Below are positions 36,948 through 59,278 of a stretch of DNA of 64,000 nt, piece after piece. The notes beneath the pieces were generated by a model that was given only the letters and a program-made list of their open reading frames with translations, ran no database searches and was not told where the DNA came from. Position numbers and translations under genes: made by a program. Location: contig NZ_CP102664.1 in assembly GCF_026427355.1 (NCBI RefSeq), positions 682,001 through 746,000 of the forward strand, written 5' to 3'. The DNA is from Sphingobium sp. JS3065. Its GTDB lineage: Bacteria > Pseudomonadota > Alphaproteobacteria > Sphingomonadales > Sphingomonadaceae. Within the stretch, counting starts at the first letter, position 1. Each line of letters opens with the position of its first letter.

Positions 36948-37021
36948 GCGGGTGTAGCTCAATGGCAGAGCAGAAGCTTCCCAAGCTTACGACGAGGGTT
37001 CGATTCCCTTCACCCGCTCCA
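36948..37021 (+). tRNA. tRNA-Gly, anticodon CCC (36980-36982)
   Basis: A 74-nt cloverleaf with encoded CCA end. Acceptor GCGGGTG pairs with CACCCGC, D stem GCTC/GAGC, T arm GAGGG-TTCGATT-CCCTT. The anticodon loop TTCCCAA gives CCC, reading GGG. It very closely resembles E. coli tRNA-Gly(CCC). Its 3' end (37001-37021) is the attachment site of the integrated element that follows. Confidence 0.95.
37001..37021 (+). repeat. attL: tRNA-Gly 3' end
   Basis: CGATTCCCTTCACCCGCTCCA, the last 21 bases of the tRNA gene. The same sequence less one C occurs at 59259-59278. tRNA 3' ends are the usual targets of tyrosine integrases, and the integrase gene starts 196 bp away. Confidence 0.75.
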
Positions 37022-37171
37022 ATTCTCGATCTCAGGACATCCCCGACAGCTTTACAAACCGCTGAAATATGCGGTATTTTTCGGGTCATCCGGCTCGTGA
37101 AATCTCCCTTCATGTCATGGAAGCCCAGGCAAAAGTGGGGCCTTTTTCGAAAATAGCGGGCCAAAAAATGC

Positions 37172-37199
37172 ACGAGGCCCCCAAGGGTGGGGGCCTCGT
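37172..37199. terminator. Strong hairpin between tRNA and integrase
   Basis: ACGAGGCCCCC-AAGGGT-GGGGGCCTCGT: an 11-bp perfect stem, 6-nt loop, ending 17 bp before the integrase ATG. No T-run follows. It could terminate tRNA read-through and so isolate int expression from the tRNA promoter. Confidence 0.5.
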
Positions 37200-37216
37200 C
37201 GTGGAAGGCCTGAACT

Positions 37217-38449
37217 ATGTCACTGACTGATATAGCAATTCGTCGAGCCAAGACGCGCGATAAACCCTACAAGCTTTACGATGAGCTGGGGCTCTTTCTG
37301 GTGATCTCCCCGTCTGGCTCCCGACTCTGGCGAATGAAGTTCCGTCACGGCGGCTCTGAAAAGAAACTGGGCTTTGGCTCTTACCCTCAGGAGAGTCTGC
37401 GCGACGCGCGTAAAATGCGCGATGACGCTCGCGACCTGCTCGTGGAGGGCAAGGACCCCGCCCTTGAGAAGCAGCGCGAGAAGCTCCGAGCGGGCGCGCT
37501 GGCCGAAAACACCTTCACCAGCATTGCCAGTGAATATTGCCGCAAGCGGCGCCGCGACGGCGACAAGGCCTGGGCACCGGCCACCGCTGCGCGCTGCGAA
37601 TATCTTCTCAGCCTGTTGGACAGCTCCATCGGCAAGATGCCGATCCATGAGATTGAGCCGATCGACGCCCTTGCCGCGATCCGCAAGATCGAGAAGCGGG
37701 GCAAGCTCGAAAGTGCGCGACGCACCTTGCAGCTGGCCAGTGCCGTGTTCCGCTATGCCGTTGCGACGGCCCGCCTGCGGTCTGACCCGACGCGGGACCT
37801 GCGCGGTGCGCTGACCATTCCAACGGTCACGCACTACGGGGCAGTCACCGATGCCAGTGAGGTTGGCGACCTGCTCAGGGCCATCGACGGCTACGAAGGC
37901 CAGGGCATGACGAAATGGGCTCTGCAACTGGCACCGCATGTCTTCGTGCGTCCTGGCGAGCTTCGTCATGCGCGATGGGATGAGATCGACCTCGACGCCG
38001 CACTATGGACCATCCCGGCCGAAAAGATGAAGATGCGCAAACCGCATCACGTGCCGCTCTCGCGTCAGTCAATCGCGATTCTGGAAGAAATCCGCTTGAT
38101 CACCGGGTCGTCAGGTTACGTTTTCCCCTCGATGCGATCAAGAACGCGGCCGATGTCGGAGAACACCCTTAACGCAGCGCTGCGCCGCCTTGGTTATTCC
38201 AGTAACGAAATGACGGCACATGGCTTCCGGGCGATGGCGAGCACTCTGCTCAACGAATCGGGCAAGTGGTCCCCGGATGCTATCGAACGGGCGCTGGCTC
38301 ATGGCGACAGCGACAAGGTGCGCGCGGCCTACCATCGCGGCGCCCATTGGAAGGAACGGGTCGCGATGGCGCAGTGGTGGTCCGATCTCTTGGATTCGTT
38401 GCGGAGTGGAGCCACCATCCGGCCCTTCCCGGGGGCAATGGCTGGCTGA
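37217..38449 (+). CDS. Tyrosine-type site-specific integrase (P4-like, DUF4102)
   Basis: A 410-residue recombinase that integrates and excises the island at the tRNA. The N-terminal DUF4102 arm-binding domain (LTDIAIRRAKTRDKPYKLYDE...GLFLVISPSG) is followed by an SAM-like core-binding domain (about 100-200) and the catalytic domain. Catalytic residues visible are Arg in VRPGELRHARW, His-x-x-Arg in AHGFRAM, and the nucleophile Tyr in VRAAYHRGAHW. Full length, no lesions. Orientation and distance from the tRNA are typical for this class. Confidence 0.93.
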   Translation: MSLTDIAIRRAKTRDKPYKLYDELGLFLVISPSGSRLWRMKFRHGGSEKKLGFGSYPQESLRDARKMRDDARDLLVEGKDPALEKQREKLRAGALAENTFTSIASEYCRKRRRDGDKAWAPATAARCEYLLSLLDSSIGKMPIHEIEPIDALAAIRKIEKRGKLESARRTLQLASAVFRYAVATARLRSDPTRDLRGALTIPTVTHYGAVTDASEVGDLLRAIDGYEGQGMTKWALQLAPHVFVRPGELRHARWDEIDLDAALWTIPAEKMKMRKPHHVPLSRQSIAILEEIRLITGSSGYVFPSMRSRTRPMSENTLNAALRRLGYSSNEMTAHGFRAMASTLLNESGKWSPDAIERALAHGDSDKVRAAYHRGAHWKERVAMAQWWSDLLDSLRSGATIRPFPGAMAG

Positions 38450-38629
38450 CCGTCTTGGGATCTGCCCGACTTCCGTTTCACCCGATTGCCTCCCCACGGT
38501 GATCAACTGGATGGCCGATAGGCGACCGTCCGGTTTGGAGCCGGATTGCGGGCATCGCAGCCGCTCACTTGGGGTCGGCCCAGCCGCGTGATAGATTAAG
38601 TCTCGACCGCTGGGCGGGCAGAAATTCTG

Positions 38630-39439
38630 CTAGTCACGTGAATCTGAAGTTCGGTTCATTGTTTTTTGGCAGAAGCGTTTGACCGCGGCGAGGATCTCGT
38701 CGGCTGACTTCACCCATTTGTAGGGCTTGGGATTTTCATTGTGAGCCGCAATGAAGGCCGTGATGTCGGCTTCGAGTTCGGCCGTGGATCGGTGGACACC
38801 GCGCTGCAACTGCTTGCGGGTCAATTCGGCGAACCAGCGCTCGACTTGATTGATCCAGGAGGCGGATGTCGGGGTGAAGTGGACATGCCAATGTGGACGG
38901 CGCGCCAGCCAGGCCTTGATCTTCGCTGTCTTGTGAGTGGCATAGTTGTCCATCACGAGGTGCACGTCCGGACCCTTGGGCATCTCGGCGTCGATCCTCT
39001 TGAGGAAGTCGAGGAACTCGGTTGCCCGGTGTCGTTTGTAGCACTTGCCGATCACCGCGCCGGTGGCGATGTCGAGCGCCGCGAACAGTGATGTCGTACC
39101 GTTGCGGATATAGGTATGAGTGCGCCGCTCGGGTACGCCAGGCGCCATGGGCAATACCGGCTGCTCGCGATCCAGCGCCTGGATCTGCGACTTTTCATCC
39201 ACGCACAGCACAACCGCCCGGTTCGGTGGCGACATGTACAGGCCAACTATGTCCTGCACCTTGTCGACGAACAGCGGATCGCTCGACAGCTTGAATGTCT
39301 CTGACCGGTGCGGCTGCAGGCCAAATGCACCCCAGATTCGGCGGATGGTGGTGTGCGACAGCCCAGAAGCAGCTGCCATGGTGCGGATCGACCAATGGGT
39401 GGCATCCTTCGGCGTCGTGTTCAGCGTGCGCTCGATCAC
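38630..39439 (-). CDS. IS630 transposase, DDE catalytic part (second frame)
   Basis: About 269 residues, the catalytic half of the transposase. First Asp in [15 protein letters not shown], second in [11 protein letters not shown], Glu in [12 protein letters not shown], i.e. the DDE triad of the IS630/Tc1 group. Continuity with the first frame comes by a -1 shift near 39466 (in-frame reading ...ADP then [15 protein letters not shown]). Its stop codon TAG is completed by the TA target duplication at the IS end. Confidence 0.88.
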
Positions 39440-39793: not shown

Positions 39794-39798
39794 CGCTT

Positions 39799-40020
39799 TC
39801 ATTCATTCCCGGCGTCATCGGAATCGGCAAAAGCCCGCATTCCACGTCGTCGCCATAAGGCCAGCGCCTGCTCGCGATCCGGCCAGCGCATTTTCGCCGC
39901 TGCCTCGACCAGCAGCCCGAGGATCACGGCGCGATCGTCGTCGGTGAGCTCGACGAGGCCCGCCTTGGCAACGAGCCCTCCCAGCTCGATCAGATGCCGC
40001 GTGCGTTTGCGCCGCTTCAC
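39799..40020 (-). CDS. traD: Conjugal transfer protein TraD (Ti-type)
   Basis: 73 residues from the GTG at 40020, preceded by CAGGGA. The sequence HLIELGGLVAKAGLVELTDDDRAVILG and the ending ALALWRRRGMRAF match the small TraD of Agrobacterium/Rhizobium-type transfer regions, a relaxosome accessory. It is downstream of traC by 16 bp on the same strand. The longer frame upstream overlaps traC and is not used. IS630 begins right after the stop. Confidence 0.8.
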   Translation of the reverse strand: MKRRKRTRHLIELGGLVAKAGLVELTDDDRAVILGLLVEAAAKMRWPDREQALALWRRRGMRAFADSDDAGNE

Positions 40021-40036
40021 ATGCCAGTCCCTGTGA

Positions 40037-40360
40037 TCATGCCGCGCCTGCTTCGCCTGAAGGCGATAGCGTGCGATCGTCGTCCTTCGCAGCGCTGCCT
40101 TGCTGGCCGCCAGTGCTGCGGCCAGCGTCTTCGCGTTCCCCCCGAAAGAACGCGGCGCCCCGCTTGCGCCACGCCTCCCGCGTTGAGCGCTCGGCAGTGG
40201 CAGCGCCAAGCAAGACGCCGGCCAGCTCCTCGATGCTGAGTCCATCGGCGCCGGTTGCCATGACCAGCTCGCCAAGCTGGCTTTGCTTGCGGCTCTTGAG
40301 TTGTCGCGCCTTATCATTGAGAGCCTTGAGTTCGGCGTCATAGTTCCTGGGTTTGCGCAT
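40037..40360 (-). CDS. traC: Conjugal transfer protein TraC (Ti-type)
   Basis: 107 residues: KPRNYDAELKALNDKARQLKSRKQSQLGELVMATGADGLS, then AWRKRGAAFFRG, the pattern of rhizobial TraC, a small DNA-binding accessory to TraA at oriT. ATG at 40360 with AGGAAAGGGA upstream. Divergent from traA across the oriT region, exactly the Ti plasmid layout (traCD facing traA). traG, the coupling protein normally next in this operon, is not present; IS630 lies in its place. Confidence 0.82.
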   Translation of the reverse strand: MRKPRNYDAELKALNDKARQLKSRKQSQLGELVMATGADGLSIEELAGVLLGAATAERSTREAWRKRGAAFFRGEREDAGRSTGGQQGSAAKDDDRTLSPSGEAGAA

Positions 40361-40532
40361 GGTTCGTCCCTTTCCTTGATGGAGCGGAACGAACCAGTTA
40401 TCGGGGTTCCCGATCAGTCACAACATCATGAAATCTCCTGAGATTTCGCGTTCCCGAGACTGATGAAATCTTTCGAGGGCGCGCTTATACGTCGTGCCGA
40501 CGTGCGCTTTTGAGTGTAAATGGATTGCCGTC
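40361..40532. other. Origin of transfer (oriT) region
   Basis: Intergenic region between traC and traA. AGGGCGCGCTTA at 40476-40487 reads, on the minus strand, TAAGCGCGCCCT, one base off the RSF1010/Ti-family nick sequence TAAGTGCGCCCT; nicking would fall at about 40479/40480. Next to it is ACGTCG-TGC-CGACGT (40489-40503), the usual relaxase-binding hairpin. Other palindromes include GAAATCTC-CT-GAGATTTC (40430-40447), ATCGGG-GTT-CCCGAT (40400-40414) and GGTTCGT...ACGAACC (40361-40395). Confidence 0.8.
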
Positions 40533-43478
40533 ATGGCGATCTACCACTTCTCGGCCAAAGTGATTTCCCGCGCCGCCGGCTCCTCGGCGGTGGCAGCGGC
40601 CGCCTATCGCTCGGCCTCGCGCCTGCGTGATGAGCGCCTGGGCCGCCACCACGACTTCTCCAATAAGCCCGGCGTCGTGCACAGCGAAATCATGCTGCCC
40701 GATGGCGCGCCGGAGGAATGGCGCGACCGTGAACAGCTCTGGAATGATGTCGAGGCGGCGGAACTGCGCAAGGACGCGCAGCTCGCCCGCGAGATCGAGT
40801 TCGCCATTCCCCGCGAGATGAACCAGGCGGACGGGATCGAGCTTGCCCGCGACTTCGTGCAGCGTGAATTCGTCGACTGGGGCATGGTCGCCGATCTCAA
40901 TGTCCATTGGGATATCGGACCTGACGGAAATCCCAAGCCCCATGCCCATGTTATGTTGGGGATGCGCGAAGTCACCGAAGAAGGCTTTGGCGCCAAAGTC
41001 CGCGACTGGAACAGGACCGAACTTCTGACCCACTGGCGCGAGGCCTGGGCCGAACATGTCAATCAACGCCTCGCCCAGCTCGATATCGACGCCCGGATCG
41101 ATCACCGATCTTTGGAAGTGCAGGGCATTGACCTCGAGCCGCAGCACAAGATCGGTCCCGCCGCCTCGCGCATGGTCGAGCAGGGACTGGAGAGCGAGCG
41201 GCTCGACGAGCACCACGCCATTGCCCGTGCCAATGGCGAGAAGCTGCTCGCTGATCCGGCCATCGCCCTGGATGCGATCACCCACCAGCAGTCGACCTTC
41301 ACCACCCATGACCTTGCCATGTTTGTGCACCGGCACAGCGAAGGGAAGGACCAGTTCGATCAGGTGATGGCGGCGGTTCGGTCCTCGCCCGAGCTGGTGA
41401 AACTGGGTAAGGATGGCCGGGGTGAGGACAGGTTCACCTCAAGGTCGATGCTGGAAACCGAGCAACGGCTGGAACGTGCCACCGCAACGCTCGACGCGCG
41501 GCGCCATCATGGCGTGGGCGAGCGGCATCTCGAGCGGGCGTTGGCCCACGCGGCGGATCGGGGAATGCTGCTCTCGCCCGAACAACGCGGCGCGTTCGAA
41601 CATGTGACCAACTCTCGCGGCATCAGCAACGTCATCGGCTATGCCGGCACCGGCAAGAGCGCGATGCTGGGCGTCGCGCACGAAGCATGGGAATCGGCAG
41701 GCTACACCGTGCAGGGCGCGGCCCTATCCGGCATCGCCGCCGAGAACCTCGAAAGCGGCTCGGGCATTGCCAGCCGCACCATTGCCAGCCTGGAGCATCA
41801 ATGGGCTCAGGATCGCGAGTTGCTGACCAACAGATCGATCCTCGTCATCGACGAGGCCGGCATGATCGGCACGCGCCAGATGGAGCGCGTGATGGCCGAG
41901 GCCCAAAAGCGCGGCGCCAAGGTCGTGGCTGTAGGCGATCCCGAGCAGCTTCAGGCGATCGAGGCGGGCGCTTCGTTCCGCTCTATCGCCGAGCGCCATG
42001 GCGCGGTCGAGATCAAGACCGTTCGCCGCCAGTCCGAGGACTGGCAGCGCCAGGCGACGCGACAGCTTGCCAACGGTCGGACGGGCGAGGCACTCGCCGC
42101 CTATGACGAGGCGGGCCATGTCCATGCCGCCGGGACGCGCGAACAGGCACGTGAGACGCTGATCGATCGCTGGGACAAGGAACGGCAGGCACATCCTGAT
42201 GCCAACCGGATCATCCTCACCCATACCAACGAGGAGGTGCGCGAACTCAATGAAGCCGCGCGGGGGCGCATGCGCGCCGCGCAGATGTTGGGTGACGACA
42301 TCAACCTGGTCGTCGAGCGCGGTAGCCGTGCCTTTGCGACCGGCGACCGTGTCATGTTCCTGCAAAACGAGCGCAGCCTGGAGGTGAAGAACGGCACGCT
42401 CGGCACCGTCGAGCATGTCAGTCCGATCGCCATGCGCGTGCGCACCGATGACGGCAGGGCCATCGCCTTCGATCTCAAACACTATGCCCATGTTGATCAT
42501 GGCTATGCCGCCACGATCCACAAGGCGCAGGGCATAACCGTGGGCAATGTCCACGTGCTGGCAACACCGAGTCTCGATCGGCATGCCGCCTATGTCGCGC
42601 TGTCCCGGCACAGGGACAGCGTCGATCTGCATTACGGCAAGGACGACTTCGCCGATCAGTCGAAGTTGGTCCGCGCCCTCAGCCGCGAGCGTGGCAAGGA
42701 CATGGCGTCGGACTATGCCTGCGTGACCGAGCCTGTCCCGCAAGTACAGCCCAGGCGCGGCATCTTCGACGGGCTCAAGCTCAAACCATCACCGCTCGAT
42801 CGGATCCCGACAAATCCGAACTTCGATGGCCTGCGGCTCAAAGTCTCGAAGGATCTGGCACAACCCACCGCGCCTCCGCCGGAGATCGTTTCGACCGCGC
42901 CCGGCGCCGAGAGCCGCGAGGCACAGCTGCGGCACGAGCGGACAGATGCGCTGCAACGCCATGCCAGGGCGATCGATGCGATCTACAGCACGCGGGATCG
43001 TGGCGGCCGGGAAAGCCCCGAGCAGCTCGCCGAGCTCAGGTCTGCGCGCCAGGCGTTTGAGGAGCAGCGCCCGGATGGGCCGCGCGATGCCGAGGTGGCC
43101 TATGCCAAGGACCCACACCTCGCGAGCGAGGCGGCGCAGGGTCGCACCGCCCGTGCGATCCGCGCACTGCAGCTGGAAACCGAGCTGCGCACCAATCCCG
43201 AGTTGCGGGCCGACCGGTTCATCACCCGCTGGAACGACCTCTCCGGTCGGGTTGATCGGCACTATGCCGCCGGGAATATGGACGCCTACAAGTCCACGCG
43301 TTCGGCCATGGCGGATATGGCGAGGAGCCTCCACCGCGATCCGCAGCTCGAATCCCTCCTTGCCATCCGCAAGGCGCAGCTTGGCATCACCATGATGGAC
43401 AGCCAGCGCTCGCTTGGCGCCCAGCTCGCGTTCGACCACGGCATTGATCTTGGCAGGGGACGCGGGCTGGGGCTGTAG
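40533..43478 (+). CDS. traA: Ti-type conjugative relaxase/helicase TraA (MOBQ)
   Basis: 981 residues from the ATG at 40533 (MAIYHFSAKVI). The N-terminal MobA/MobL relaxase domain (about 1-210) has YHFSAKVISR and the metal-binding triad in KPHAHVML, with a Tyr-rich AAYRSASRL helix. A RecD/AAA-type helicase domain follows: Walker A GYAGTGKSAML, DEAGMIG Walker B, and YVALSRHRDS motif VI. The C-terminal 250 residues are charged and poorly conserved. It nicks and unwinds DNA at the adjacent oriT. Full length and apparently intact; a partner T4SS would have to come from another element. Confidence 0.92.
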   Translation: MAIYHFSAKVISRAAGSSAVAAAAYRSASRLRDERLGRHHDFSNKPGVVHSEIMLPDGAPEEWRDREQLWNDVEAAELRKDAQLAREIEFAIPREMNQADGIELARDFVQREFVDWGMVADLNVHWDIGPDGNPKPHAHVMLGMREVTEEGFGAKVRDWNRTELLTHWREAWAEHVNQRLAQLDIDARIDHRSLEVQGIDLEPQHKIGPAASRMVEQGLESERLDEHHAIARANGEKLLADPAIALDAITHQQSTFTTHDLAMFVHRHSEGKDQFDQVMAAVRSSPELVKLGKDGRGEDRFTSRSMLETEQRLERATATLDARRHHGVGERHLERALAHAADRGMLLSPEQRGAFEHVTNSRGISNVIGYAGTGKSAMLGVAHEAWESAGYTVQGAALSGIAAENLESGSGIASRTIASLEHQWAQDRELLTNRSILVIDEAGMIGTRQMERVMAEAQKRGAKVVAVGDPEQLQAIEAGASFRSIAERHGAVEIKTVRRQSEDWQRQATRQLANGRTGEALAAYDEAGHVHAAGTREQARETLIDRWDKERQAHPDANRIILTHTNEEVRELNEAARGRMRAAQMLGDDINLVVERGSRAFATGDRVMFLQNERSLEVKNGTLGTVEHVSPIAMRVRTDDGRAIAFDLKHYAHVDHGYAATIHKAQGITVGNVHVLATPSLDRHAAYVALSRHRDSVDLHYGKDDFADQSKLVRALSRERGKDMASDYACVTEPVPQVQPRRGIFDGLKLKPSPLDRIPTNPNFDGLRLKVSKDLAQPTAPPPEIVSTAPGAESREAQLRHERTDALQRHARAIDAIYSTRDRGGRESPEQLAELRSARQAFEEQRPDGPRDAEVAYAKDPHLASEAAQGRTARAIRALQLETELRTNPELRADRFITRWNDLSGRVDRHYAAGNMDAYKSTRSAMADMARSLHRDPQLESLLAIRKAQLGITMMDSQRSLGAQLAFDHGIDLGRGRGLGL

Positions 43479-43634
43479 AACAGCCCAAGGCCCGAGTCGT
43501 GGGGGTCTTCACCACCTGCCACAATCTCAGGCCGCCTCAGTTGCAGGCGCGCCAACGCGGCCGCGAATCTCATCGCTTCCAGCGATGTTTCAGCCTCTGG
43601 CATTCCGAACGGAGCAAGGTCTAGCCTGCCGTTC

Positions 43635-44201
43635 ATGACCGAGACCACCGACACCGAAGTAACCACTGCCCAGGCCTTCGAGGCCGTGCGGCATGAACTC
43701 AGCCTCCTGCACAATGCCGTTGCCAACCTGACGGCGGCGCGCGAGCGGATCCCCGATCACACGGCGGCGCTTGATGGCATCGATCGACGTCTGGGGAATG
43801 TCTGTGGCCGGCTTGCCGCCGTCGAACAGACACCGGCGATCTCGCTCACACCCGCCGAAATGGCGCAGCAGATCAACCGAGCCGCTGAAGCCGTGCGCGT
43901 TGAGGATCGGCGCATGCTCGACACCGCGCGCGCCGCGCTCGACCGGTCGGCTGGGCAAATCGACAGAGTTGTAAAACGGGGGCAGGCGGCCGACCGGCAG
44001 ATCGAACGCCAGATATGGTGCGTGGCAGCGGGCATGCTCGCCGGCATCCTCGTATGGGCGGTGCTGCCCGGAACCGTTGCACGATCCCTGCCGGCCAGTT
44101 GGCATGTGCCCGAATGGATGGCGGCGCGGACCATGAACATGGAGCAGAGGGTCGCTGGCGAGCGACTGATCGCGACGGCGCGCAAGCCGGAACGACCGTG
44201 A
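43635..44201 (+). CDS. DUF6118-like membrane protein
   Basis: 188 residues: an acidic, Ala-rich coiled-coil N-terminal part (VTTAQAFEAVRHELSLLHNAVANLT), a conserved SLTPAEMAQQI block, and one TM helix near residues 133-152 (CVAAGMLAGILVWAVLPGTV). I associate this layout with DUF6118 proteins that sit beside TraA-type relaxases in sphingomonads. Function unknown; an envelope-anchored accessory of transfer is possible. Separated from traA by 156 bp. Confidence 0.68.
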   Translation: MTETTDTEVTTAQAFEAVRHELSLLHNAVANLTAARERIPDHTAALDGIDRRLGNVCGRLAAVEQTPAISLTPAEMAQQINRAAEAVRVEDRRMLDTARAALDRSAGQIDRVVKRGQAADRQIERQIWCVAAGMLAGILVWAVLPGTVARSLPASWHVPEWMAARTMNMEQRVAGERLIATARKPERP

Positions 44202-44653
44202 GGTTGGACTGTCCGGAACGACAGGTCACACCCGCACAAATGTAATAGCGGACATTCGGATGCGTCGGTATCGGCTTCCGGGTCCGACCCTTCTTTGCCG
44301 TTCAGCGCCTAGTTTTTACTCCTCAGGTGCGGACCGGCTGCTTATCCGTCCTGGGCAAGAAAGGCCAGGTCAAAACTATGGATTGACGGGTTCATCAGGA
44401 ATTTCCGTTTCCAAGACCCCGAAAAATTCAATCGAACGGCGGGAAGTGGCGCGATGTCGAAGGGCTGATGAGGGGGCTTGGGTTGGCCATGCACGAGCCC
44501 CTTTCACGTTGAGTTTACTCGGCTAGAATCAGGCGTTGCGCTGGGATTGTTCCTCATGATCTGACGATCAAACCGGTGGCACGAACGACAACTGGGATTA
44601 GCTTCACTCAACCGCAAGCCTGTCGAAGAAGGCGGAACCACCTCATGGTTTCC
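44202..44653. other. 452-bp region without a recognisable gene
   Basis: A non-coding stretch between the DUF6118-like gene and the convergent diguanylate cyclase. A weak hairpin GGGGCT...AGCCCC (about 44473-44504) may terminate the DUF6118 transcript. A frame at 44260-44526 (88 codons) has no domain features, so I do not call it. Confidence 0.4.
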
Positions 44654-45868
44654 CTACGCCACCGCCAGCTTGACGGCCAACGCATCTTCCCTGGTGCAGA
44701 AATGCAGCGTTGCCTTCCCATTCATCTTGGAACGGTAAAGGGCTGAATCCGCGCAGGAAATAAGCTGTTCAAGGTCCAGGCTGAGGTCAGGAGCTATTGC
44801 AATTCCCACGCTTGCGGAAATACTCATGGATATACCGCCCACCTCATAGGGAGCGCTCAGCCGCTTGATGAGGCGGCGCGCAAGCATTTCCGCCTCGTCT
44901 TCATGGAAGACATCTTTCTGGATCACGATAAACTCGTCACCTCCGACACGGGCCACTATGTCGTCGGCTCTTACCATAGTCTCAAGCTGGGCGGCGACCT
45001 GGCGAAGTATCTCGTCGCCGGCCGGGTGGCCGTATGTGTCGTTGATCGCCTTGAATCCATCGAGGTCAATGAAATGCATAGCGAGTTTACTGCCTGAACG
45101 GATCGTGTCGGTGCTGATTTCCTGAAATCGCTCTCGCAGCAGCAACCTGTTGGCAAGGCCGGTCAATGGATCTCGCTTGGCGAGGTGGGCCATGTCGTGA
45201 CGGGCGGTATGGTGCGCGACCGCTGAACGGTACAGATGGGCGACCGTCTGCAGGCTCAGGGCCGTTATCATCGCGACGAGTAAGGATTCGATCAGAAAAA
45301 GCTCGCTGTGAAGGGGGGTCGGATGCCCTTCGAGAGCGTGGAGCGCCAGGGCGACAACGGTAGGCACCGTGGCGAGCAACAGGCTGACTGCGCAAATGAA
45401 AGGCCGAATAGAGATGCGCGACACCACCCCGGCGCCGAAGCTGAATACCAGGCTCACTGTCAGGAGATGGAAGACCGGGAAAGGATAGGTCAATGCGCGG
45501 GCACTGAGCATCCCGAGCAGGAGGGCGAACGCATAATTGCCCAGGGCATAATAGCGTTCCCATTGTTTGAGCCGGCTTGCATCAACGACAGGACGGGATT
45601 TGTTATACGCTCTGATCAGCAGGCCACGCCCGATCGTGACCAGGCCGCCTGTCACCGCCAGCGTTCCAATGATCGCGTCGCCCAGATGATAGGCCGTCAA
45701 TCCGGCAACGCCGACAAAAACCAGCCCCAATCCCAGAACCGGCAGCCCCATGCTGAACAGCATGTCGATGAAGTCACGGTAGACAGCCTGAGGCAGCGGA
45801 ACTGCCTCAGAAAAGAGCGTCAAGCTCCGGCGCCGAGGCGCCTGTCTCTGCTGGTCTGAACGTCTCAC
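44654..45868 (-). CDS. Membrane-bound diguanylate cyclase (GGDEF)
   Basis: 404 residues from GTG 45868. Five or six N-terminal TM helices (about 35-200) form an MASE-like sensor, then a GGDEF domain (about 230-395). The A-site is intact (VGGDEF in RVGGDEFIV), as are SKLAMHFIDLDGFKAIND and YGHPAGDEIL. An RxxD inhibitory site (RADD) lies five residues before GGDEF, so product feedback inhibition is expected. No EAL domain. It is divergent from the HlyD/PilZ glycosyltransferase operon, which makes it the obvious local c-di-GMP source. Confidence 0.93.
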   Translation of the reverse strand: MRRSDQQRQAPRRRSLTLFSEAVPLPQAVYRDFIDMLFSMGLPVLGLGLVFVGVAGLTAYHLGDAIIGTLAVTGGLVTIGRGLLIRAYNKSRPVVDASRLKQWERYYALGNYAFALLLGMLSARALTYPFPVFHLLTVSLVFSFGAGVVSRISIRPFICAVSLLLATVPTVVALALHALEGHPTPLHSELFLIESLLVAMITALSLQTVAHLYRSAVAHHTARHDMAHLAKRDPLTGLANRLLLRERFQEISTDTIRSGSKLAMHFIDLDGFKAINDTYGHPAGDEILRQVAAQLETMVRADDIVARVGGDEFIVIQKDVFHEDEAEMLARRLIKRLSAPYEVGGISMSISASVGIAIAPDLSLDLEQLISCADSALYRSKMNGKATLHFCTREDALAVKLAVA

Positions 45869-47205: not shown

Positions 47206-47212
47206 CGCAGCC

Positions 47213-50278: not shown

Positions 50279-50727
50279 TTCCAACCGAGTTCCGGCGCAT
50301 AAAGGTTGAAGCCGACCGCTAGCCGGTTCCAGCCGTTGATGACGTTGATCATCATGGTTAGCTTCACCTGCTCTTCCTTGTCGAACTGGCCATCCAGCGG
50401 GGCATAGACGGCATCGGGCGCACGCTTGGTGGCGACCTCGGTCAGATGTTCGGTCCAGGCCAGCGCGGCGCGTTCCCGGTCAGTATAGCACGGCGCTTCC
50501 TGCCATGCGGCCAGCAGATGGATGCGCTGCTCTGTTTCACCCGCCCGGCGCGCGTCGGCAGTATGCATGTTGAGGCAGTTGGCGCAGCCGTTGATCTGAG
50601 AAGCCCGGATCTTGACCAGCTCGAGCAGCGGTTTCTCAAGCCCGCACTCTCCGACCTGTATTGAAAAAGCATACCAGGCCCTAAAAAGGTCGGGAGCGGT
50701 GGCGGTCACATCGGCGCGAGGTGTCAT
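50275..50727 (-). CDS. Carboxymuconolactone decarboxylase (AhpD-like) family protein
   Basis: 150 residues from the ATG at 50727, with AAAGGAT upstream; the longer frame to 50811 would run through the promoter. All-alpha AhpD fold with the redox motif CANCLNMHT (Cys-x-x-Cys followed by His), which supports peroxidase-like or disulfide chemistry. Other conserved parts are LELVKIRASQINGC and NVINGWNRLAVG. This is the protein class (COE) that ECF41 sigma factors typically control; here both are in one two-gene operon behind an ECF41-type promoter. Confidence 0.9.
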   Translation of the reverse strand: MTPRADVTATAPDLFRAWYAFSIQVGECGLEKPLLELVKIRASQINGCANCLNMHTADARRAGETEQRIHLLAAWQEAPCYTDRERAALAWTEHLTEVATKRAPDAVYAPLDGQFDKEEQVKLTMMINVINGWNRLAVGFNLYAPELGWK

Positions 50728-50761
50728 GGCAATATCCTTTCTTTTATAGGGATGCCGACAT

Positions 50762-50788
50762 GACGAGGCAAAGCGGGTCGACGTGACA
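50762..50788 (-). promoter_or_regulatory. ECF41-type promoter of the AhpD-like/sigma operon
   Basis: On the minus strand: TGTCACG (-35) then exactly 16 bases then CGTC (-10). The published ECF41 consensus is TGTCACA-N16-CGTC, so there is one mismatch. It ends 35 bp upstream of the AhpD-like ATG, which implies that the sigma factor activates its own operon. Confidence 0.75.
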
Positions 50789-51186
50789 TGGTCAGAGAAA
50801 TTTTCCTCCAATGTGAGGAGTTATGCAAACGCCACGATCGCGTGCCCCGCCGCTAGAGCGGCCGATGAACGAATGGAAGGTTTCAAGAACCCATCATTCA
50901 ACACTCGAATGACCGTTCTGTTGGCACAGCCGTCACCGCCGGGCCACGCGTGGGAGGGCAGCCACTTTACTTTCGCTGCCAGAAACCTGCCCGACCGAAA
51001 TCCTGTCAGGTCAAGCCGATCAGCGGTCGTTCAGCACGGCGCCAAATTTTGTCGTGGAAATCGGCTTCGCCGACTCCCGAAACAAGACATTAATCGTGAT
51101 AGAGATCGAAGCGAAGCGAAGGATGATCAACTTTAACCGTGCCGTGACACTTCATCCTCGGGGAGGCATATCAACCGCGGTCGGTA
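50789..51186. other. 398-bp stretch with no gene called
   Basis: Sits between the ECF41 operon promoter and the small membrane protein gene of the next cluster. I see no RNA gene, no strong hairpin and no conserved frame; a 117-codon plus-strand frame (50783-51136) has no domain features. Confidence 0.4.
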
Positions 51187-51465
51187 TCAATTTCTCTCTT
51201 GCGCGCCGCGGCTGAACCAGATTGCCAGCGACCAGCCAATCACACCGCAGCCACCGAGCCAGATGAGGAAAGCCGCCGCATCCCCTATCAGAGCGCATAG
51301 AAGGCCAGGAAGACAGGCTGCGGCAGTCAGCACTTGCCGCAGCCGTCCTGTCTGACCCGTTTCCCGCATCCCGGCCGCGCGTTTGCGTTTGGGGTCACTA
51401 AGGCACAAGGCGAGAAGGATCAGCACGGATATGGCGGTCGCAACCAAGACCAACAGCATAGTCAT
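51187..51465 (-). CDS. Small membrane protein of the iron-uptake cluster (DUF3325-like)
   Basis: 92 residues, three hydrophobic segments (about 2-22, 48-66, 66-86). Position as the third gene after a PepSY protein, and the pattern LLALCLSDPKRKR...GLLCALIGDAAAFLIWLG, fit DUF3325, which accompanies PepSY proteins in siderophore receptor clusters. Its ATG overlaps the PepSY stop by 4 bp. The assignment is by position and hydropathy more than by clear sequence motifs. Confidence 0.62.
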   Translation of the reverse strand: MTMLLVLVATAISVLILLALCLSDPKRKRAAGMRETGQTGRLRQVLTAAACLPGLLCALIGDAAAFLIWLGGCGVIGWSLAIWFSRGAQERN

Positions 51466-53045
51466 TCGGCTGGCACCGGACGGGCTGGGAGCAGCAATCG
51501 CCTTGCAGGTAAAGCCGCCACCCGCCAGACCATCCAAATTCCGGCGAGAAGGAAAGCCAAGTCGAGTGCGGCGATGATCGGCTGACCTGCCTCGATTGCG
51601 CGGTCCCAGCCGGGCCCTCCGGAAATCCAGCGGAGTGGGACCAAGCCAGCCATGACCAATCCGGTGCCGAGTTGCAGAATTTGTCCCAGCACAGCCACCG
51701 ACTGTGCAATCGCGCCGCCCAATATGGCCACGCCGGACGCGATCAGGAAGGCGGCAGGGGTCCAATAGGTCGCCGATCCCAGCGGCATTGCGATGAGGAA
51801 GGCGGCGGCCGAGACCACCAGAGCGAAGGGGAGGCCGAAACCCACGACCATGACGGTGCGATCAAGCCATTCCAGCGATCGCATATCCTCCCGTCGCCGC
51901 GCGAGCCACAGCCGCAGCCCCGTAAATGTGACATAGCACATGGCGAACCCCAGCGCGAACCACACAGCTTTGGACAGCATGCCTGAGAAATTGCCGAAAT
52001 GCATGGGCGCCATGATCGCGGCCAGCGTGCCGCCTGCCGACGGCTGCGTGCCGATCGACGGCTTGGTGTGGAGGAACTGCGCTTGTGCCCCGTCATACAG
52101 CAGGGTCACAGGCTCGATGTCACCTGCCTTGGGGGGATGGAAGCTCGTGACCTTCGCGTCGGCGCGGCCGAAATTCTCGATGGTGATGAAGGTCGGAACC
52201 TCGCCCGTCCGGCGAATGGCATCGGTAGCGACCCGGTCCATATTGCCGATGACTGCGGGCCGGGGGTCTGGCCGGCCCGGATTGCCGAAGACGGCGTCGT
52301 TGAGCGCTTGAACATCACCGCCAAAGGCCGCCATGGCGACAATGGGAACGCCGATCGTGCCGAAAAAGGAGAAGAAGCTACCCGTAAAGGCCAGGATGAA
52401 GGCGAAGGGCAGGCTCCACGTCCCGGCCACGCTGTGTCGGTCGCGATCCACCAACACCGGGCTGGCGGATCGGCGCAGAGTGAAGATGTCCTTGAAGAGA
52501 TGGCGATGGATCAGCAGCCCGGAAATCGCGGCCACCAGCATCACCAATCCGACTATACCTGTCAGCAGCAAGCCCCAAGGGTTGGGAACATGCAGGCGGA
52601 CATGAGTATCGACCAGAAAGCTGCTCAGTGCATCGTCGTTGCGTGGCCCGAACACCTCCTCGCCGGTTCCGTGCAGCGCCTTGGCAATATCGCCCTTCTT
52701 ATCGAGCTGGTAATAGACGCCGCGGCTGACCAAGGTACCGTCAGGATCGGTTTCGTGTCGGTGGAAAAAGGCGCCGAGATTATGGTCGCCGATCTCGAAA
52801 AGATCGACACCTTCATGATATTTGGCGGGCGTTTGCGCGGCCAGGCGGCGGATGCTGCCGTCCATCGGCCGCTCGAAGGCCGACTTGGTTTCGACATGGC
52901 CAGCCGACCAGATGCCGATCTCCTCCGCGAACACCGCCGCCATGCCGGTGAAGATCACCGCGTAGAGCAGCAGCCCCAGCACGATGCCCGACCAGCCATG
53001 GACGGCGACCATCAGCTTCGTCTCATCCTTTTTCAGGTGGATCAT
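51462..53045 (-). CDS. PepSY-associated TM protein (siderophore/ferric reductase-like)
   Basis: 527 residues, polytopic. TM1 (about 18-38) follows VAVHGWSGIVLGLLLY, the classic PepSY_TM start. PepSY repeats follow in the periplasm, and then VTLLYDGAQAQFLHTKPS and HFGNFSGMLSKAVWF with a conserved His. The last 150 residues hold about five more TM helices. These proteins are thought to transfer electrons to ferric siderophores at the inner membrane. Both ends overlap its neighbours by 4 bp, so the three genes form one coupled operon divergent from the receptor. Confidence 0.85.
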   Translation of the reverse strand: MIHLKKDETKLMVAVHGWSGIVLGLLLYAVIFTGMAAVFAEEIGIWSAGHVETKSAFERPMDGSIRRLAAQTPAKYHEGVDLFEIGDHNLGAFFHRHETDPDGTLVSRGVYYQLDKKGDIAKALHGTGEEVFGPRNDDALSSFLVDTHVRLHVPNPWGLLLTGIVGLVMLVAAISGLLIHRHLFKDIFTLRRSASPVLVDRDRHSVAGTWSLPFAFILAFTGSFFSFFGTIGVPIVAMAAFGGDVQALNDAVFGNPGRPDPRPAVIGNMDRVATDAIRRTGEVPTFITIENFGRADAKVTSFHPPKAGDIEPVTLLYDGAQAQFLHTKPSIGTQPSAGGTLAAIMAPMHFGNFSGMLSKAVWFALGFAMCYVTFTGLRLWLARRREDMRSLEWLDRTVMVVGFGLPFALVVSAAAFLIAMPLGSATYWTPAAFLIASGVAILGGAIAQSVAVLGQILQLGTGLVMAGLVPLRWISGGPGWDRAIEAGQPIIAALDLAFLLAGIWMVWRVAALPARRLLLPARPVPAE

Positions 53046-53421: not shown

Positions 53422-53446
53422 GCTATTGAGAGTCTCTCTCAATAGC
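53422..53446. promoter_or_regulatory. Perfect 11-bp palindrome between divergent iron genes
   Basis: GCTATTGAGAG-TCT-CTCTCAATAGC. It lies in the 133-bp divergent gap between the PepSY operon and the TonB receptor. The inner ATTGAGAG...CTCTCAAT part resembles iron-regulator boxes. It would suit a dimeric repressor controlling both directions; Fur or another iron regulator is the likely binder. Confidence 0.55.
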
Positions 53447-54075
53447 GCTAGTGGACGCCCGATCAGGGACAAGGGATGAAATGATGAGAAAATTTGCCGT
53501 CGCCGGGGTTGCCGGTCTTCTGTCGATCCAGCCGGCTTTGGCAGATGTGGATGTCAGCGCGCCGGCGGACAAGGCAGGCGAGGTCAGCGATCAGATCATC
53601 GTCACTGCCAATGCCGGTACGAAGACCGAAACGCCGCTGGTCGAAATGCCGCAGCCGATCACCGTGATCACTTCGGAGCAATATATCTCTCAGGGTGCGA
53701 TCAGCATCAGCGACACGGTCAAATATGCCGCCGGTGTGCTCGCCAGCCCCTATGGGCGCGATACGCGCGTCGACGGTTTCAGCGTGCGCGGTATCGATGC
53801 ACTCCAGTTCCGCGACGGCATGCGCGACATCTTCAGCTATTATGCCAGCATCACGGCGGACCCCTACAACTTCTCCCGCGTGGAGATCGTGCGCGGCCCC
53901 GCGTCGGTGCTGTTCGGCCAAGGCTCGATCGGCGGCCTCGTCAACCTTGTTTCCAAGACCCCTGAGTTCAAGACGGGCGGCCAATTGAGATGGGGTGGTT
54001 GCCGCCCTCCCCAGACGGCACTGAGATGTGCCAGGATAGTGGAATTAGGACCACTGAGCGGAAAGGACGGCAATC

Positions 54076-55107
54076 GTGTCAAAAGATACAATGATCGGCG
54101 TGGACTTGGCAAAGTCCGTGTTTCAGCTTCATGCAGCGTCAATGACAGGCGAACCCAAGTTTCGGAAAAAGCTTCCGCGTTCAGCCTTCGCCGCATTTAT
54201 GGCAGCGCAACCGTCGGCGGTGATCGTGATGGAAGCATGTGGCAGTGCGCATTATTGGGCCCGGGAAATGATCCGGCTTGGCCACGAGGTCAAACTTATC
54301 GCACCACACTATGTTAAGCCGTTCGTGAAGCGACAGAAAAATGATGCCGCTGACGCTGAAGCGATCGTAATTGCGGCTCAACGACCAGAGATGCGGTTTG
54401 TTGATCCAAAGTCGGAAGAGCAGCAAAGCAGGGCGATTCTATTTCGCGGAAGAGAACGGCTGGTTCATCAACGCACGGAACTGGTCAATGCCGTAAGGGC
54501 GGCGCTCTATGAATATGGTCATGTTGTCCCCCAAGGCATAAATCAGCTCTGCAGGATTGCGGACATTCTTGATGAGCTTAACAGCGATTTGCCCGTTTTG
54601 ATGCGGGAGGAATGCCGAGATCTATTGGCACAGATCGCTGAGAAAACTGAGCGTATCAATATACGGACAAAGAAGATCAAAGCGCTGGCGGCTGAAACTG
54701 ACGCGGCCAAGCGGCTACAGACGATTCCGGGAGTTGGCCCTTTAACAGCCTTAGCGGTCGAGGCCTTCGCCCCATCAATGGAGAGCTTCCGATGCGGGCG
54801 GGACTTCGCGGCCTGGCTCGGTCTTGTCCCGCGACAATTCTCCTCGGGCGGAAAGGAGCGCCTTGGACGTATTTCGAAAGCGGGTCAGGCCGATATCCGC
54901 AGACTGCTTATCATAGGTGCAATGTCCCGTCTGAATTGGATGGGTCGAAGATCGATTCCAGAAAATTCCTGGCTCGCAGATATGCTTGCCAGGAAACCGA
55001 GAATGCTTGTGGCAATTGCCCTCGCCAACAAGATGGCCAGAACGATTTGGGCCCTGATAAAAAATGGTAATGAATACAGAATTCCGGCGCAGGCAGCAGT
55101 TGCATGA
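54076..55107 (+). CDS. IS110-family DEDD transposase/recombinase
   Basis: 343 residues from the GTG at 54076 (AAAGGA upstream). N-terminal RuvC-like DEDD domain with Asp10 (GVDLAKS), Glu53 (VIVMEACGS), Asp90 and Asp93 (KNDAADAEA). The C-terminal Transposase_20 domain has TIPGVGPLTALAV and the conserved Ser region SGGKERLGRISKAGQ. IS110-type recombinases work with an element-encoded bridge/seek RNA. Intact, so the element may be active. Confidence 0.93.
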   Translation: MSKDTMIGVDLAKSVFQLHAASMTGEPKFRKKLPRSAFAAFMAAQPSAVIVMEACGSAHYWAREMIRLGHEVKLIAPHYVKPFVKRQKNDAADAEAIVIAAQRPEMRFVDPKSEEQQSRAILFRGRERLVHQRTELVNAVRAALYEYGHVVPQGINQLCRIADILDELNSDLPVLMREECRDLLAQIAEKTERINIRTKKIKALAAETDAAKRLQTIPGVGPLTALAVEAFAPSMESFRCGRDFAAWLGLVPRQFSSGGKERLGRISKAGQADIRRLLIIGAMSRLNWMGRRSIPENSWLADMLARKPRMLVAIALANKMARTIWALIKNGNEYRIPAQAAVA

Positions 55108-55378
55108 TCGGCATGCCAACAAGCTTACCTAACGTCGGATGATGGGGGTGTGAGAAGGCGACGACCCGAATGGGCGAAATGAGCGAACAGATCTGGTTCG
55201 GGAAAACCAGTTACGAGGCGTGAGCATCCCAGCTCGAAAACGAGATTTGGACTCGAACCGCAGATCACCATACCGGCCAGCGGCTTCTGAAACGCCGCAA
55301 CCAAAGGCCTGACAGAAGACCGCACTCGATCACTCGCTCTTCGGATCAGAAACTTCTTGCATCACGGGCGGCAACCAC
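55108..55378 (+). ncRNA. Candidate bridge/seek RNA region of the IS110-type element
   Basis: 271 bp downstream of the transposase and inside the IS, with no frame. In IS1111-type elements the guide RNA lies here. GGCTTCT at 55282-55288 is complementary to AGAAGCC of the receptor target, and GGCCA at 55275-55279 repeats the left target flank. Short matches like these can arise by chance; the RNA itself is an inference. Confidence 0.45.
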
Positions 55379-57121
55379 AGAAGCCTGGTATATGGCAGCT
55401 ACGACCGCAAGGAGGCGATGGGCGATGTCAATATCGCGCTGGCCGACAATCTGGCGATCCGCGCCGTTGGCCGGGTGCGCGACGCCGACACCTATGTCGA
55501 CCATGTTCCGGACGACCGCGTGCTGTTCGCGCCCTCGATCCGCTGGCAGCCGACGCCTGACACGGATGTCGTCCTGACCGGCCTCTATCAGGAGGACGAC
55601 ACCGGCTCGACCGCGCAGTTCCTGCCGATCGTCGGCAATTTCCGTCCGAATCCCGCGAATCCCTCCGAGCGGCTCGATCGCTACACCTTCGTCGGTAAGC
55701 CCGGCTGGGATCGCTACGCCGGCCGTTTACTCCAGGGTGGCGGTTCCATCACCCACAGATTCTCGGACAATATCCGTCTCAGCCTCAAGGCCCGCTATAT
55801 CGACAGCGACCTTGAGTATAAGACTCACTATGCGGATAGCTACACTTACCCAAGCGATCCCTTCTCGGTGTACGGCACCGACGGCCGCACCATCGGTCTC
55901 TATGCCGATGCCAGCGACGCGCGGATGAACGTCTTCTCGACCGACAACAACCTCCAGTTCAACTTCAACACCGGCACCGATATCGAGCACAAGCTGCTCA
56001 TCGGCCTGGACTATAGCTGGAACAAGGTCGGCAAGCGCGGTATCTTCGGCTTCGAAACCGTCGATCTTTACAACATCGACTATGACGCGCTGCTGACCTA
56101 CGAGCCGACCGGGCCCTACGCCAATGTCTCGCAGAAGCAGCTGGGCGTGTATGTCCAGGACCAGATCCGCTTCTTTGAGCGCGTCTCGGTCGTTCTGGGC
56201 GCGCGCCGCGACCATGTCACCAACTCCGCCGGGCAGAAGGACAATGCCACGACCTTCCGCGCCGGTATCATCGGGGAAATCGGCGCGGGCTTCTCGCCCT
56301 TCTTCAGCTATACGGAAAGCTTTCTGCCGGTCGCGGGAAGCCTGACGGGTCCGGGCGGCGTCGTCGGCGATCCCTTCCAGCCCCAGACGGGCACGCAATA
56401 TGAAGCAGGCGTGAAGTGGCAGCCGACCCCTGCGACGCTTGTCACGGTGACGGCTTTCCACATCAAGGAAAAGAACCGCGTCCTTTACCTGCCGAACAAT
56501 GTCACGACCCAGTCCGGCGAACTGACCACCAAGGGCATCGAGGTCGAGGCGAGCCATCGCCTGCCCGGCGACTTCGAATTGCTGGTCAATTACGGCTATA
56601 ACCAGCTGAAGTCGGAGGTGAACAGCAGCCTTGAATATATGCCGCGCCACATCGCGTCGATCTGGTCGACCAAGAGCTTCGGCATGACGGACGGCGCGCA
56701 GCTGCGTCTTGGCGCCGGCGTCGTCTATAGCGGCAAGAGCAAGTCGACCGGCGCCCTTGACCCCTATGGCCTCAATCCCGCCATCCCGGCCGGGACCCTC
56801 TATACGGTGGTCACCCCGTCCCGCACCACCGTCGACGCCCTGGCGGAGATCAACTGGCAGAGCTGGCGCTTCGCACTCAATGCGACGAACCTGCTGAACA
56901 ATAAATTCTACGCATCCTGCCTTGCGCGCGGCGACTGCTTCATGGGCGCACCCCGCAATGTGATGGGCACCGTTAGCTATCGCTTCTGATCGACTGGATG
57001 TGGCCGGGCGCACAGCCCGGCCAGAAAGTGTGACCCAGCCGATCTCCCCCTCAGCCTTCCCGCCGATCCGGTGCTGAAGGGACGCATGCGCGTCATGTGA
57101 AACGTAACCCCAGCAATTGCG

Positions 57122-57150
57122 AATGATAACAATTACTATTGCATATCATT
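57122..57150. promoter_or_regulatory. Fur-box-like palindromic site upstream of the second receptor
   Basis: AATGATA-N15-TATCATT, with the internal run TGATAACAATTACTATT. It is AT-rich against the GC-rich surroundings and close to the classical Fur box GATAATGATAATCATTATC. It lies about 60 bp before the receptor start at 57210. Confidence 0.65.
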
Positions 57151-57209
57151 AGCAATTTGAGATACGGGACGGGCTCGGTCTTGATCGAGGCACATTTGGG
57201 GGATGATCA

Positions 57210-58848
57210 ATGGTTCGTTCTTTCCTTCCGGCCTTCAGGTTCGCACTCTTGGCAGCGACTTTCCTCTCCGCCCCCGCCTTCGCGCAGGACGGCGAAGACG
57301 CTTCGAAGCAGGAGGCGGGAAGCGAAGCGAAGGACGACACCATCGTCGTCTATGGCAGCGGCATTGACCGGAACAACGCTGCCACCGGGCTTGACCTGAC
57401 GCCGCGCGAGACACCGCAGTCGCTCACCATCATCACCCGGGAGCAGATCGACGATCAGGCTGCGTCTACAATCGCCGATGTGCTTGAATATACCACCGGC
57501 TTGTCCGTCAAGCGGGTGGATCGTGGCCGCAACCTCCTGTCCGCTCGCGGCTTCGACATCACCAATTTCCAGCTCGACGGCCTGCCCTTTGCTACCGGCA
57601 ATATCGGTCTGGAGGAAAGCAGCACGGTCATCTTCGATCGAGTCGAAGTCGTTCGCGGCTCGGTCGGTCTGCTACAGGGCGCGGGTGAGCCTTCGGCATC
57701 AATCAACATGGTGCGCCGACAGGCCAACGCCCGCGAATTGACCGGCACGATGACCCTCGAAGCCGGATCCTGGGATCATTTCTCTGCACCGCTGACATCA
57801 GCACGCCATTGACAAGCGACGGGTCGATACGAGCGCGTTTTGCCGCCGAAGTCTATCGTCAGGATGCCTTTGTCGATCTGGAGAGCAGCAAGGGCTTTAC
57901 GCTTTATGGCGTGATCGGAGCCGACCTGGGGCCGGGGACGCGGCTTCGTGCGGGCGCGAGCTATCAGCGGGATGAGCGCAAAGGCGTGATGTGGGCGCAG
58001 CTGCCTTATTGGTATGCCGACGGCTCGGTCGCGAACTGGTCGCGATCAAGGACGACGGGCGCCAAGTGGAACGAATGGGACACGGTCGAAAAGTCCGCCT
58101 TTCTGACGATCGAACAGGACCTGGGGGAAAGCTGGCAGTTGAAGGGGGACATCTCCTATTTCACGCAGACCGAGGATTCCAAGCTGATCTGGCTATGGGG
58201 GAACCCGGATCAGGCCACAGGCCTCGGCATGGATGTCTGGCCCTATTGGTATTTGGCTAAGCCTAAACAATGGAACCTCAATCTCCAGCTCAAGGGAAGT
58301 TACAGCATCTTCGGCCGCCAGCATGAACTTGTCGTTGGCGCGATGTATAATCACCTGAAGAATGGCTGGACCAATCGCGATCCTGATCCCGCGTCGGTCG
58401 CGCCAGTGGGCAACTTCAACGACTGGGAAGGCAGCTATCCCGAACCCGTTTGGGGTGAGCGCTATCGCATGAGCGACTTCGGCACGACGAAGCAGAGTGC
58501 GATTTACGGCGTGACGCGATTCCAATTGCTGGACAGTCTCAAACTGATCGTCGGCGGACGCCTGAGCAACTGGATCCGGGACGAGGAACTGGCGCTCTAT
58601 ACGCCCGAAGCGTACAAGATTAAGAAAAAGAACGTGTTCACGCCTTATGCGGGCCTGATATTCGATTTCAACGATAGCCTATCCGCTTATGCAAGCTATA
58701 CCAGCATCTTCAATCCACAGACCGCGCGGGATCGCAACGGGCGCTATCTGGATCCGCTGGAAGGCAATACAACACCAATTCTTGGTTTGGTGGATATATC
58801 TACGGTGAGCCTCGCAACTTTCGCATGACGTTAAGCTACGGATTTTAA
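57210..58848 (+). pseudogene. TonB-dependent siderophore receptor, frameshifted and internally deleted
   Basis: The first frame (57210-57812) holds a signal peptide ending APAFAQ, a TonB-box/plug region (ETPQSLTIITREQ, VEVVRGSVGLLQGAGEPSAS). Near 57795 the frame shifts: SWDHFSAP should continue ADISTPLTSDGS, found in the second frame to 58828. That frame then drops out at LEGNT, and a receptor C-terminus (YIYGEPRNFRMTLSYGF, stop at 58848) continues in the third frame. Roughly 150-200 barrel residues are missing. So one frameshift plus an out-of-frame deletion; not functional. FhuE/FoxA-like by pattern. Confidence 0.88.
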
Positions 58849-59258
58849 GATCGATGTCCTCGTTGAGCTCATCATCCATCGGTCAGTCTCGAATCCACCC
58901 ATTCCGACCGCAGGGCTACCCAGCGCATTCTCCATACCGGTCATTGGGCGGTCGGCTCGAGTGCATGAATGTATGGCTGGTCACGACGGATGAATTTGGC
59001 CCTGGGAGCGACTGCTCCGTTGGCGGCAGCCGACGTTAGTAATCACAGCAGCAAGAAGAATCTTGGTCAGCGGGCGGTTGGAAATTGCTAGGGCTGGCTC
59101 GACGAGGTATTGTGGCTTTGCACAAGCGTAGCCCGCCAGCGAGCCATGTTTAAGCTCCGAACCCGATTTACGGGAAGGGAATGGGGCCACTGTATGGGGC
59201 CTAATTTTTTGCTGCAGTGCAGCAATTTACTTGATTACAGTCCCTTAGGTGAACCTTG
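58849..59258. other. 410-bp gene-free stretch at the right end of the island
   Basis: Between the dead receptor and the attR copy. No domain-bearing frame, RNA gene or terminal repeat was found. AT content rises towards 59200-59250. It probably is island residue, consistent with decay near the right end. Confidence 0.4.
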
Positions 59259-59278
59259 CGATTCCCTTCACCGCTCCA
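59259..59278 (+). repeat. attR: imperfect copy of the tRNA-Gly 3' end
   Basis: CGATTCCCTTCACCGCTCCA, identical to the tRNA end at 37001-37021 except that one C of the CCC run is missing. Same orientation as the tRNA. The rest of a tRNA is absent, as expected for the distal att site of an element inserted in a tRNA gene. Confidence 0.7.

Follow-up and report, generated by a model that had tools for sequence, protein, structure and literature searches.

Is the block of accessory DNA that follows a glycine transfer RNA (tRNA) gene of Sphingobium sp. JS3065 an island inserted by its own integrase, and what does the one base missing from its far boundary mean? The locus lies in a 64,000-nucleotide (nt) stretch of contig NZ_CP102664.1 (positions 682,001 to 746,000; the window), whose coordinates are used here, tRNA positions being numbered with A76 as the last nt. 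The block extends over 22,257 bp (37022-59278), from a tRNA-Gly(CCC) gene to regA, a gene for a RegA-like response regulator. We consider it probable that it is a tRNA-Gly island of its own P4-type integrase and that its far end bears a scar of the kind proposed below; from the sequences compared, the missing base appears to be a recurrent, position-specific scar and not noise.

The tRNA-Gly(CCC) gene (36948-37021, + strand) is the single tRNA that ARAGORN found in the window and the sole match (66.8 bits) of an Rfam scan of positions 33000-62000. It is the restored target gene (attL, the left attachment site) and is followed, 195 bp downstream across the element's left end (37022-37216, + strand), by a P4-type tyrosine integrase of 410 amino acids (37217-38449, + strand), with arm-binding, central and catalytic domains all above the Pfam cut-offs. 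Integrase relatives of at least 69% identity adjoin tRNA-Gly genes. The last 21 bases of the tRNA gene (37001-37021) recur in direct orientation as 20 bases at 59259-59278 (+ strand; attR, the right attachment site), immediately behind the element's right end (58964-59258, + strand). At up to 4 edits and on both strands, the repeat is found only in these two places of the window; it aligns with a score of 18.0, compared with 11.0 at the next forward place and 10.5 at the best place in the wrong orientation, and a chance repeat was rejected on account of this uniqueness and of the distance in score. The displaced fragment corresponds to tRNA nt 56-76 without one of C68-C70. A loss at nt 68, 69 or 70 looks the same within this run of three C; we label the gap nt 70 (a base that would fall between 59272 and 59273) because this is the position common to the other cases described below. 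The regA stop codon lies at 59296, 17 nt past the repeat. The regulator (59296-59826, - strand) reached 169 of 250 bits, below its NCBIfam cut-off, and its neighbourhood with the tRNA recurs in relatives. The GC content of the island is 60.7%, that of the left and right flanks 64.9% and 63.8%; a search for arm-type repeats common to both island ends found only 8-mers. An initial annotation, made from the window alone, had described the tRNA-Gly gene with an intact P4-like integrase within 200 bp and the 21-base tRNA end recurring at 59259-59278 minus one base, and both were found as described; a better direct repeat elsewhere in the window was sought, and at up to 4 edits there is none.

The empty site predicted by the same annotation, joining 37021 directly to 59279, exists in relatives. 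With the neighbouring regulator as query, matches were obtained in 61 of 61 genomes, and the 30 best-matching places were extracted as loci. In 12 of these 30, tRNA-Gly lies 8-37 nt from regA in the window's orientation, and in G003 the ten bases past the tRNA CCA are those that follow window position 59278. The other 18 loci comprise the window itself, two with the tRNA at 165 and 187 nt, ten with an inverted tRNA, G011 with the island's right end, and four without a tRNA match. Among the 29 loci of relatives, 12 contain the histidine kinase of the left flank. A whole tRNA gene with a direct 3' fragment, an adjoining arm-domain integrase and an empty site together place the element among the tRNA-targeted P4-type islands. 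The regA locus varies in other ways as well. In the ten inverted loci (L011, L013, L014, L015, L018, L020, L021, L031, L033 and L034), tRNA-Gly(CCC) points its 5' end toward regA and is accompanied by sequence resembling the tRNA upstream region; in L020 and L033 the inverted tRNA has integrase-like DNA behind it. In L089 (G092:C1:1238500-1242500), tRNA-Gly stands between regA and a homologue of the histidine kinase; a damaged tRNA fragment lies about 60 bases further on, and the 4 kb covered contain no integrase and no island.

The same ends surround other cargo in other species, each end being found in 3 of 94 genomes of the genus, the window's own included. In G011, the window's left end is present at 96% identity over 1,533 bases, with full identity in the first 209 past the tRNA (37022-37230), and the right end at 91% over 312 bases (58964-59274). 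At the DNA level, no more than 167 bases of the interior can be aligned. The two ends have moved between species, since G011 holds them around different cargo and its flanks are only 72-78% identical to those of the window genome. The G011 island is similar to that of the window in its tRNA, both ends and the missing base, and differs from it in cargo (ten of its larger frames code, among others, for a TonB protein, PepSY, a TonB receptor, FecR, a sigma factor, a transposase and a three-part efflux pump), in a frame-shifted integrase (with an 8-base gap against the window's, and only residues 169-406 in matching frame) and in its attR, from which the last four tRNA bases are also gone. G111 carries both ends, on two contigs, at 88% (left, 37022-37230) and 84% (right, 59076-59278), and its integrase match ends after 240 bases. 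The ~22-kb tRNA-Gly island bounded by two repeats, as initially proposed, is thus borne out by the empty site in relatives and by the same ends in G011 and G111. The 167 bases that align with G011 (43849-44015 in the window) are 97.6% identical within an otherwise different island. In G111 (L086, L087), a 51-base match to the 5' part of the tRNA lies ~13 kb from the attR copy, possibly as a result of rearrangement.

The displaced fragment of relatives often carries an insertion or deletion (indel), at a single place that agrees with nt 70; this holds for several target tRNAs, and the indel does not cluster on the integrase tree. Integrase relatives were sought in 94 genomes of the genus and 397 of the family; in the genus set, places were hand-picked among the matches listed, mainly on long contigs, and in the family set DNA was taken for 27 of the 36 listed integrase places. 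The far-end test used 18-nt templates from each element's own tRNA end, intact or with 1-3 losses or 1 gain per position; the forward scan tolerated one mismatch if there was no exact match, and the wrong-orientation control was exact only. Seven of 88 elements had no tRNA in reach. Strict far ends were obtained for 32 of the remaining 81 (26 exact, 6 with one mismatch), against wrong-orientation exact matches in 0 of 81; the 49 elements without a strict far end include several on short contigs. An indel is present in 19 of the 32 strict far ends, and in 10 of 23 when nine elements picked for their damage first are set aside (G215, G454, G503, G218, G287, G219, G353, G490 and G335; all except G335 were also recovered by the integrase-first search of the 397 genomes). 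Of the 19 indels, 18 agree as printed with a position at tRNA nt 70, and the remaining one, in G218, printed as nt 67, fits nt 70 equally by hand with the same one mismatch.

Among damaged far ends in tRNA-Gly, one base is lost in the window, G021, G107, G215, G454, G503, G218, G287, G219, G353, G490 and G335, three are lost in G372, and one is gained in G158. In other targets, G099 and L230 (Phe), L231 (Cys) and L251 (Thr) have lost one base and G028 (Val) three. The base is also absent from G011, G111 and more distant elements, one of the latter in tRNA-Gly(TCC). G011 and G473 fail the strict test, their right-edge bases being gone, and show the same gap in a looser alignment; they stand outside the 19, and G473 is included in the tree. 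The far ends of G302 and L265 (printed ins1@60 and del2@60) were counted as undamaged, as these indels do no more than mark the block's left edge, and the weak far ends of G036, G217 and L237 were left out of the counts. The window's attR has the small deletion 3 bp upstream of the discriminator that defines Islander-type attachment-site damage. Random decay is an unlikely cause of the gap, given that the indels fall at a fixed place. The initial annotation noted the missing base and did not recognise its recurrence as a position-specific scar. A family-wide pattern, TTCCCNNNACCGCTCCA, gave 25 matches in 24 of the 397 genomes, and its reversed control exceeded these with about 40, so that the match count is meaningless and the weight is carried by contexts and integrases: in 9 of the 16 genomes searched among the 24, an integrase relative lies on the same contig, in the same orientation and upstream of the site. 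In L101, L102, L108, L112 and L116, the left neighbour 'ctattggc' precedes the tRNA fragment, common to far ends in several genera; it is the recognisable arm of one element subfamily.

We propose that the P4-type integrase of the island inserted the island DNA into the 3' part of tRNA-Gly(CCC), that this DNA would have restored the tRNA gene, and that the original 3' fragment would now stand at the far end beside regA. The damage was rather likely made at or soon after each insertion, and we lean towards a strand exchange within about nt 59-69, with nt 70 just beyond it in host-derived DNA. Our reading of the gap was at the beginning another one, namely that the element's own attachment site (attP) carries a one-base-short tRNA end, exchange taking place to its right among the final 6-7 nt of the tRNA, and that descendants inherit the gap. 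We turned from it, and now regard it as unlikely, given the tree, the different targets and G215. Mapped on the tree of 29 integrases, damage requires 8 changes of state, compared with a mean of 8.5 after shuffling, and 244 of 500 shuffles were as low; the damaged state does not cluster. Nearly identical integrases in tRNA-Phe (G099 and G092) have opposite damage states, and their left arms differ too. The same place is affected in Gly, Phe, Cys, Thr and Val targets, as a loss of one, a loss of three or a gain of one. In G215, the restored tRNA has T64 and attR has C64, which is the host's base, as C64 is present in 3 of 3 congeners looked at. G218 still favours inheritance: its attR has A67, where G67 is expected from C6 of the host itself and from congener G279 (congener G125 has A67). 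Taken alone, this A67 would place the exchange of strands somewhere right of nt 67. Further observations weigh against the proposal as a whole. As many as 13 of the 32 strict far ends are undamaged (in tRNA-Gly: G084, G009, G130, G302, G373 and G322; in other tRNAs: G134, G092, G000C2, G067, L249, L256 and L265). The tree test is low-powered at 29 rows, and some small integrase clades have a single state (G215, G503 and G218 damaged; G084 with G130, and G009 with G373, undamaged). The window, G011 and G111, which have homologous ends, are all damaged, as inheritance would also give, and no excisionase family matched in the 30 island frames scanned against Pfam. According to the available text on ICEBs1, either parent's base may survive in mismatched crossover regions (PMC3715440). 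G215 and G218, two cases that pull apart, could be reconciled if nt 64 and nt 67 lie within the exchanged segment and nt 70 at its right edge.

Two other readings concern what the island is today. Two TraD-like genes (39799-40020 and 40037-40360, both - strand; Pfam PF06412, 75.8 and 51.9 bits) precede a sequence with a palindrome resembling an origin of transfer (oriT; 40476-40503, + strand), whose 28 bases are identical upstream of traA on plasmid pNP2-R2 and which, we assume, resembles MobQ nick sites. The TraA relaxase-helicase (40494-43478, + strand) is above the cut-offs of NCBIfam PRK13889 (over its full length), TraA_Ti and MobQ; traA probably starts at 40533, as the models begin at residue 14. 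A plasmid similar to pUT1 or pNP2-R2 might have been the source of this module, which could enable a helper to mobilise an excised circle. With a relaxase and an oriT-like sequence the island has part of what defines an integrative and mobilizable element (IME), and the initial annotation had called it mobilisable, which is possible: in favour are the relaxase, the two TraD genes, the oriT-like sequence and the genes for ATPases of type IV secretion systems (T4SS; VirB4/TrbE-type) elsewhere in the same genome, on contigs C4 and C5 and, more weakly, at C1:1117128 (26.1 bits, cut-off 21). An integrative and conjugative element it is not, as no T4SS family matched in the 30 island frames and all VirB4/TrbE matches lie outside the island. 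That traA, traD and oriT are a working transfer module with a helper's secretion system, and the island a true IME, is somewhat doubtful, even with a full-length TraA above three cut-offs. When nine island proteins were used as queries, no TraA relative at an expectation value (E) of 1e-20 was found in 48 other elements (~2-40 kb of each), so that the module, which resembles pUT1 and pNP2-R2, looks like a passenger; no excisionase family was matched, and the missing base may make excision costly. Also unlikely is a fixed composite, immobile today, made of an old insertion, plasmid debris and insertion sequences, in which the missing base is ordinary decay. It would suit two TonB receptors, one of them cut by IS110 and the other in two frames, and the integrases of G011 and G111, cut or frame-shifted in both of these other genomes with the same ends; against it, integrase and TraA of the window have uninterrupted reading frames with all their domains, and the gap falls at the recurrent place with the remainder of the repeat unchanged.

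If, as proposed for the insertion by the P4-type integrase, nt 70 lies on the host side, precise excision would rebuild a tRNA gene without nt 70. We put forward with hesitation, from sequence considerations, that this is so and would tend to keep the island in place. In G300, a whole 73-nt tRNA-Gly(CCC) (L104; G300:C40:69885-69957) is without the base that is also missing from the window's attR; an intact tRNA-Gly(TCC) lies 8.4 kb away, and no integrase matched at E 1e-60 in the genome. This short tRNA may be a candidate excision scar, a mutation or an assembly slip. Less likely still is the wider proposal that P4-type tRNA integrases have a tendency to delete nt 70 from the displaced end at each insertion, that island loss would therefore break the tRNA, held as a hostage, and that G300 is an excision scar tolerated as another glycine tRNA reads the codon.

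The remaining cargo is accessory, and Pfam matches support most of it. An IS630-type transposase frame (DDE_3; 38630-39439, - strand) lies in an area (island bases 1609-2772) with similar DNA on Sphingobium plasmids. Behind traA, a DUF6118 gene (43635-44201, + strand), which neighbours traA on pUT1 too, lies in DNA (43480-44654) without a near match among plasmids. It is followed by a GGDEF diguanylate cyclase (44654-45868, - strand), an HlyD-type membrane fusion protein (45982-47205, + strand), a glycosyltransferase with a PilZ domain (47147-49159, + strand), a SigJ-type sigma factor (49424-50284, - strand; NCBIfam, 364.8 bits, cut-off 271), a carboxymuconolactone decarboxylase family protein (50275-50811, - strand) and a PepSY-associated membrane protein (51462-53045, - strand). 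The first TonB receptor (53451-56989, + strand) has its Plug in the first piece and its barrel in the last, with IS110 DNA inside it at about 53988-55383; a plasmid of Sphingobium sp. V4 has ~2 kb at this receptor where the window has 3.4 kb, and its copy therefore appears uninterrupted. The second (57210-58828, + strand) comprises Plug and part of the barrel in two overlapping frames. A defence library run on 8 frames matched only TraA, mostly with helicase-like models, and no phage structural family is among the Pfam matches of the 30 frames (Pfam only). The accessory genes listed in the initial annotation (IS630, IS110, oriT/relaxase, c-di-GMP/EPS genes, an ECF41 unit and iron genes) were recovered, except that the library name of the sigma factor is SigJ and not ECF41. 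The list needed correction in its TonB receptors, one cut by IS110 and the other in two frames, and in a 180-amino-acid 'TraD' frame that conceals the two TraD genes.

The island as such is ordinary; its scar is of a kind already known, which is found here in further target tRNAs, and the lock-in idea is testable. A position-specific scar in the far repeat sharpens boundary calls for tRNA islands and offers an explanation, open to testing, for their persistence at the insertion site. A tree can be used to ask if damage is inherited or newly made, as was tried here on 29 integrases, and a larger set could decide it. In 'Traffic at the tmRNA gene' (Williams 2003), the P4-type integrase is said to promote 'damage routinely, which may be adaptive', and the tmRNA integrase reportedly belongs to the P4 subfamily.

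The accessible portion of the Islander paper, which cites Williams 2003, already describes small deletions in displaced fragments, placed 3 bp upstream of the discriminator, and counts 148 of 3919 islands as damaged (PMC4383910). Unlike the damage set as presented there (PMC4383910), ours comes from an integrase clade of Sphingobium and related genera; its targets are Gly, Phe, Cys, Thr and Val tRNAs, damage is present in 19 of 32 far ends, and the tree test speaks here against inheritance. A narrow literature search, including the available parts of PMC10111431, PMC3146451, PMC3715440 and PMC12884075, found no further treatment of such damage. As regards the transfer genes, plasmid pNP2-R2 (NZ_CP079204) has the traD-traD-oriT-traA order of the island, and pUT1 (NC_014005) has traA-DUF6118 and an IS630; in contrast to the island, both are replicating plasmids, and the stretches compared are without the island ends. 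Similar to the island, pPDL2 of Sphingobium fuliginis is, in the excerpts available, a Sphingobium element with an integrase and an attP at a tRNA 3' end; it is mobilised by a helper and was termed an integrative mobilizable element by its authors (PMC3516476). It differs from the island, according to the same text, in being a plasmid, in using a seryl-tRNA site, and in its proposed transfer protein, which is RepB and not TraA (PMC3516476).

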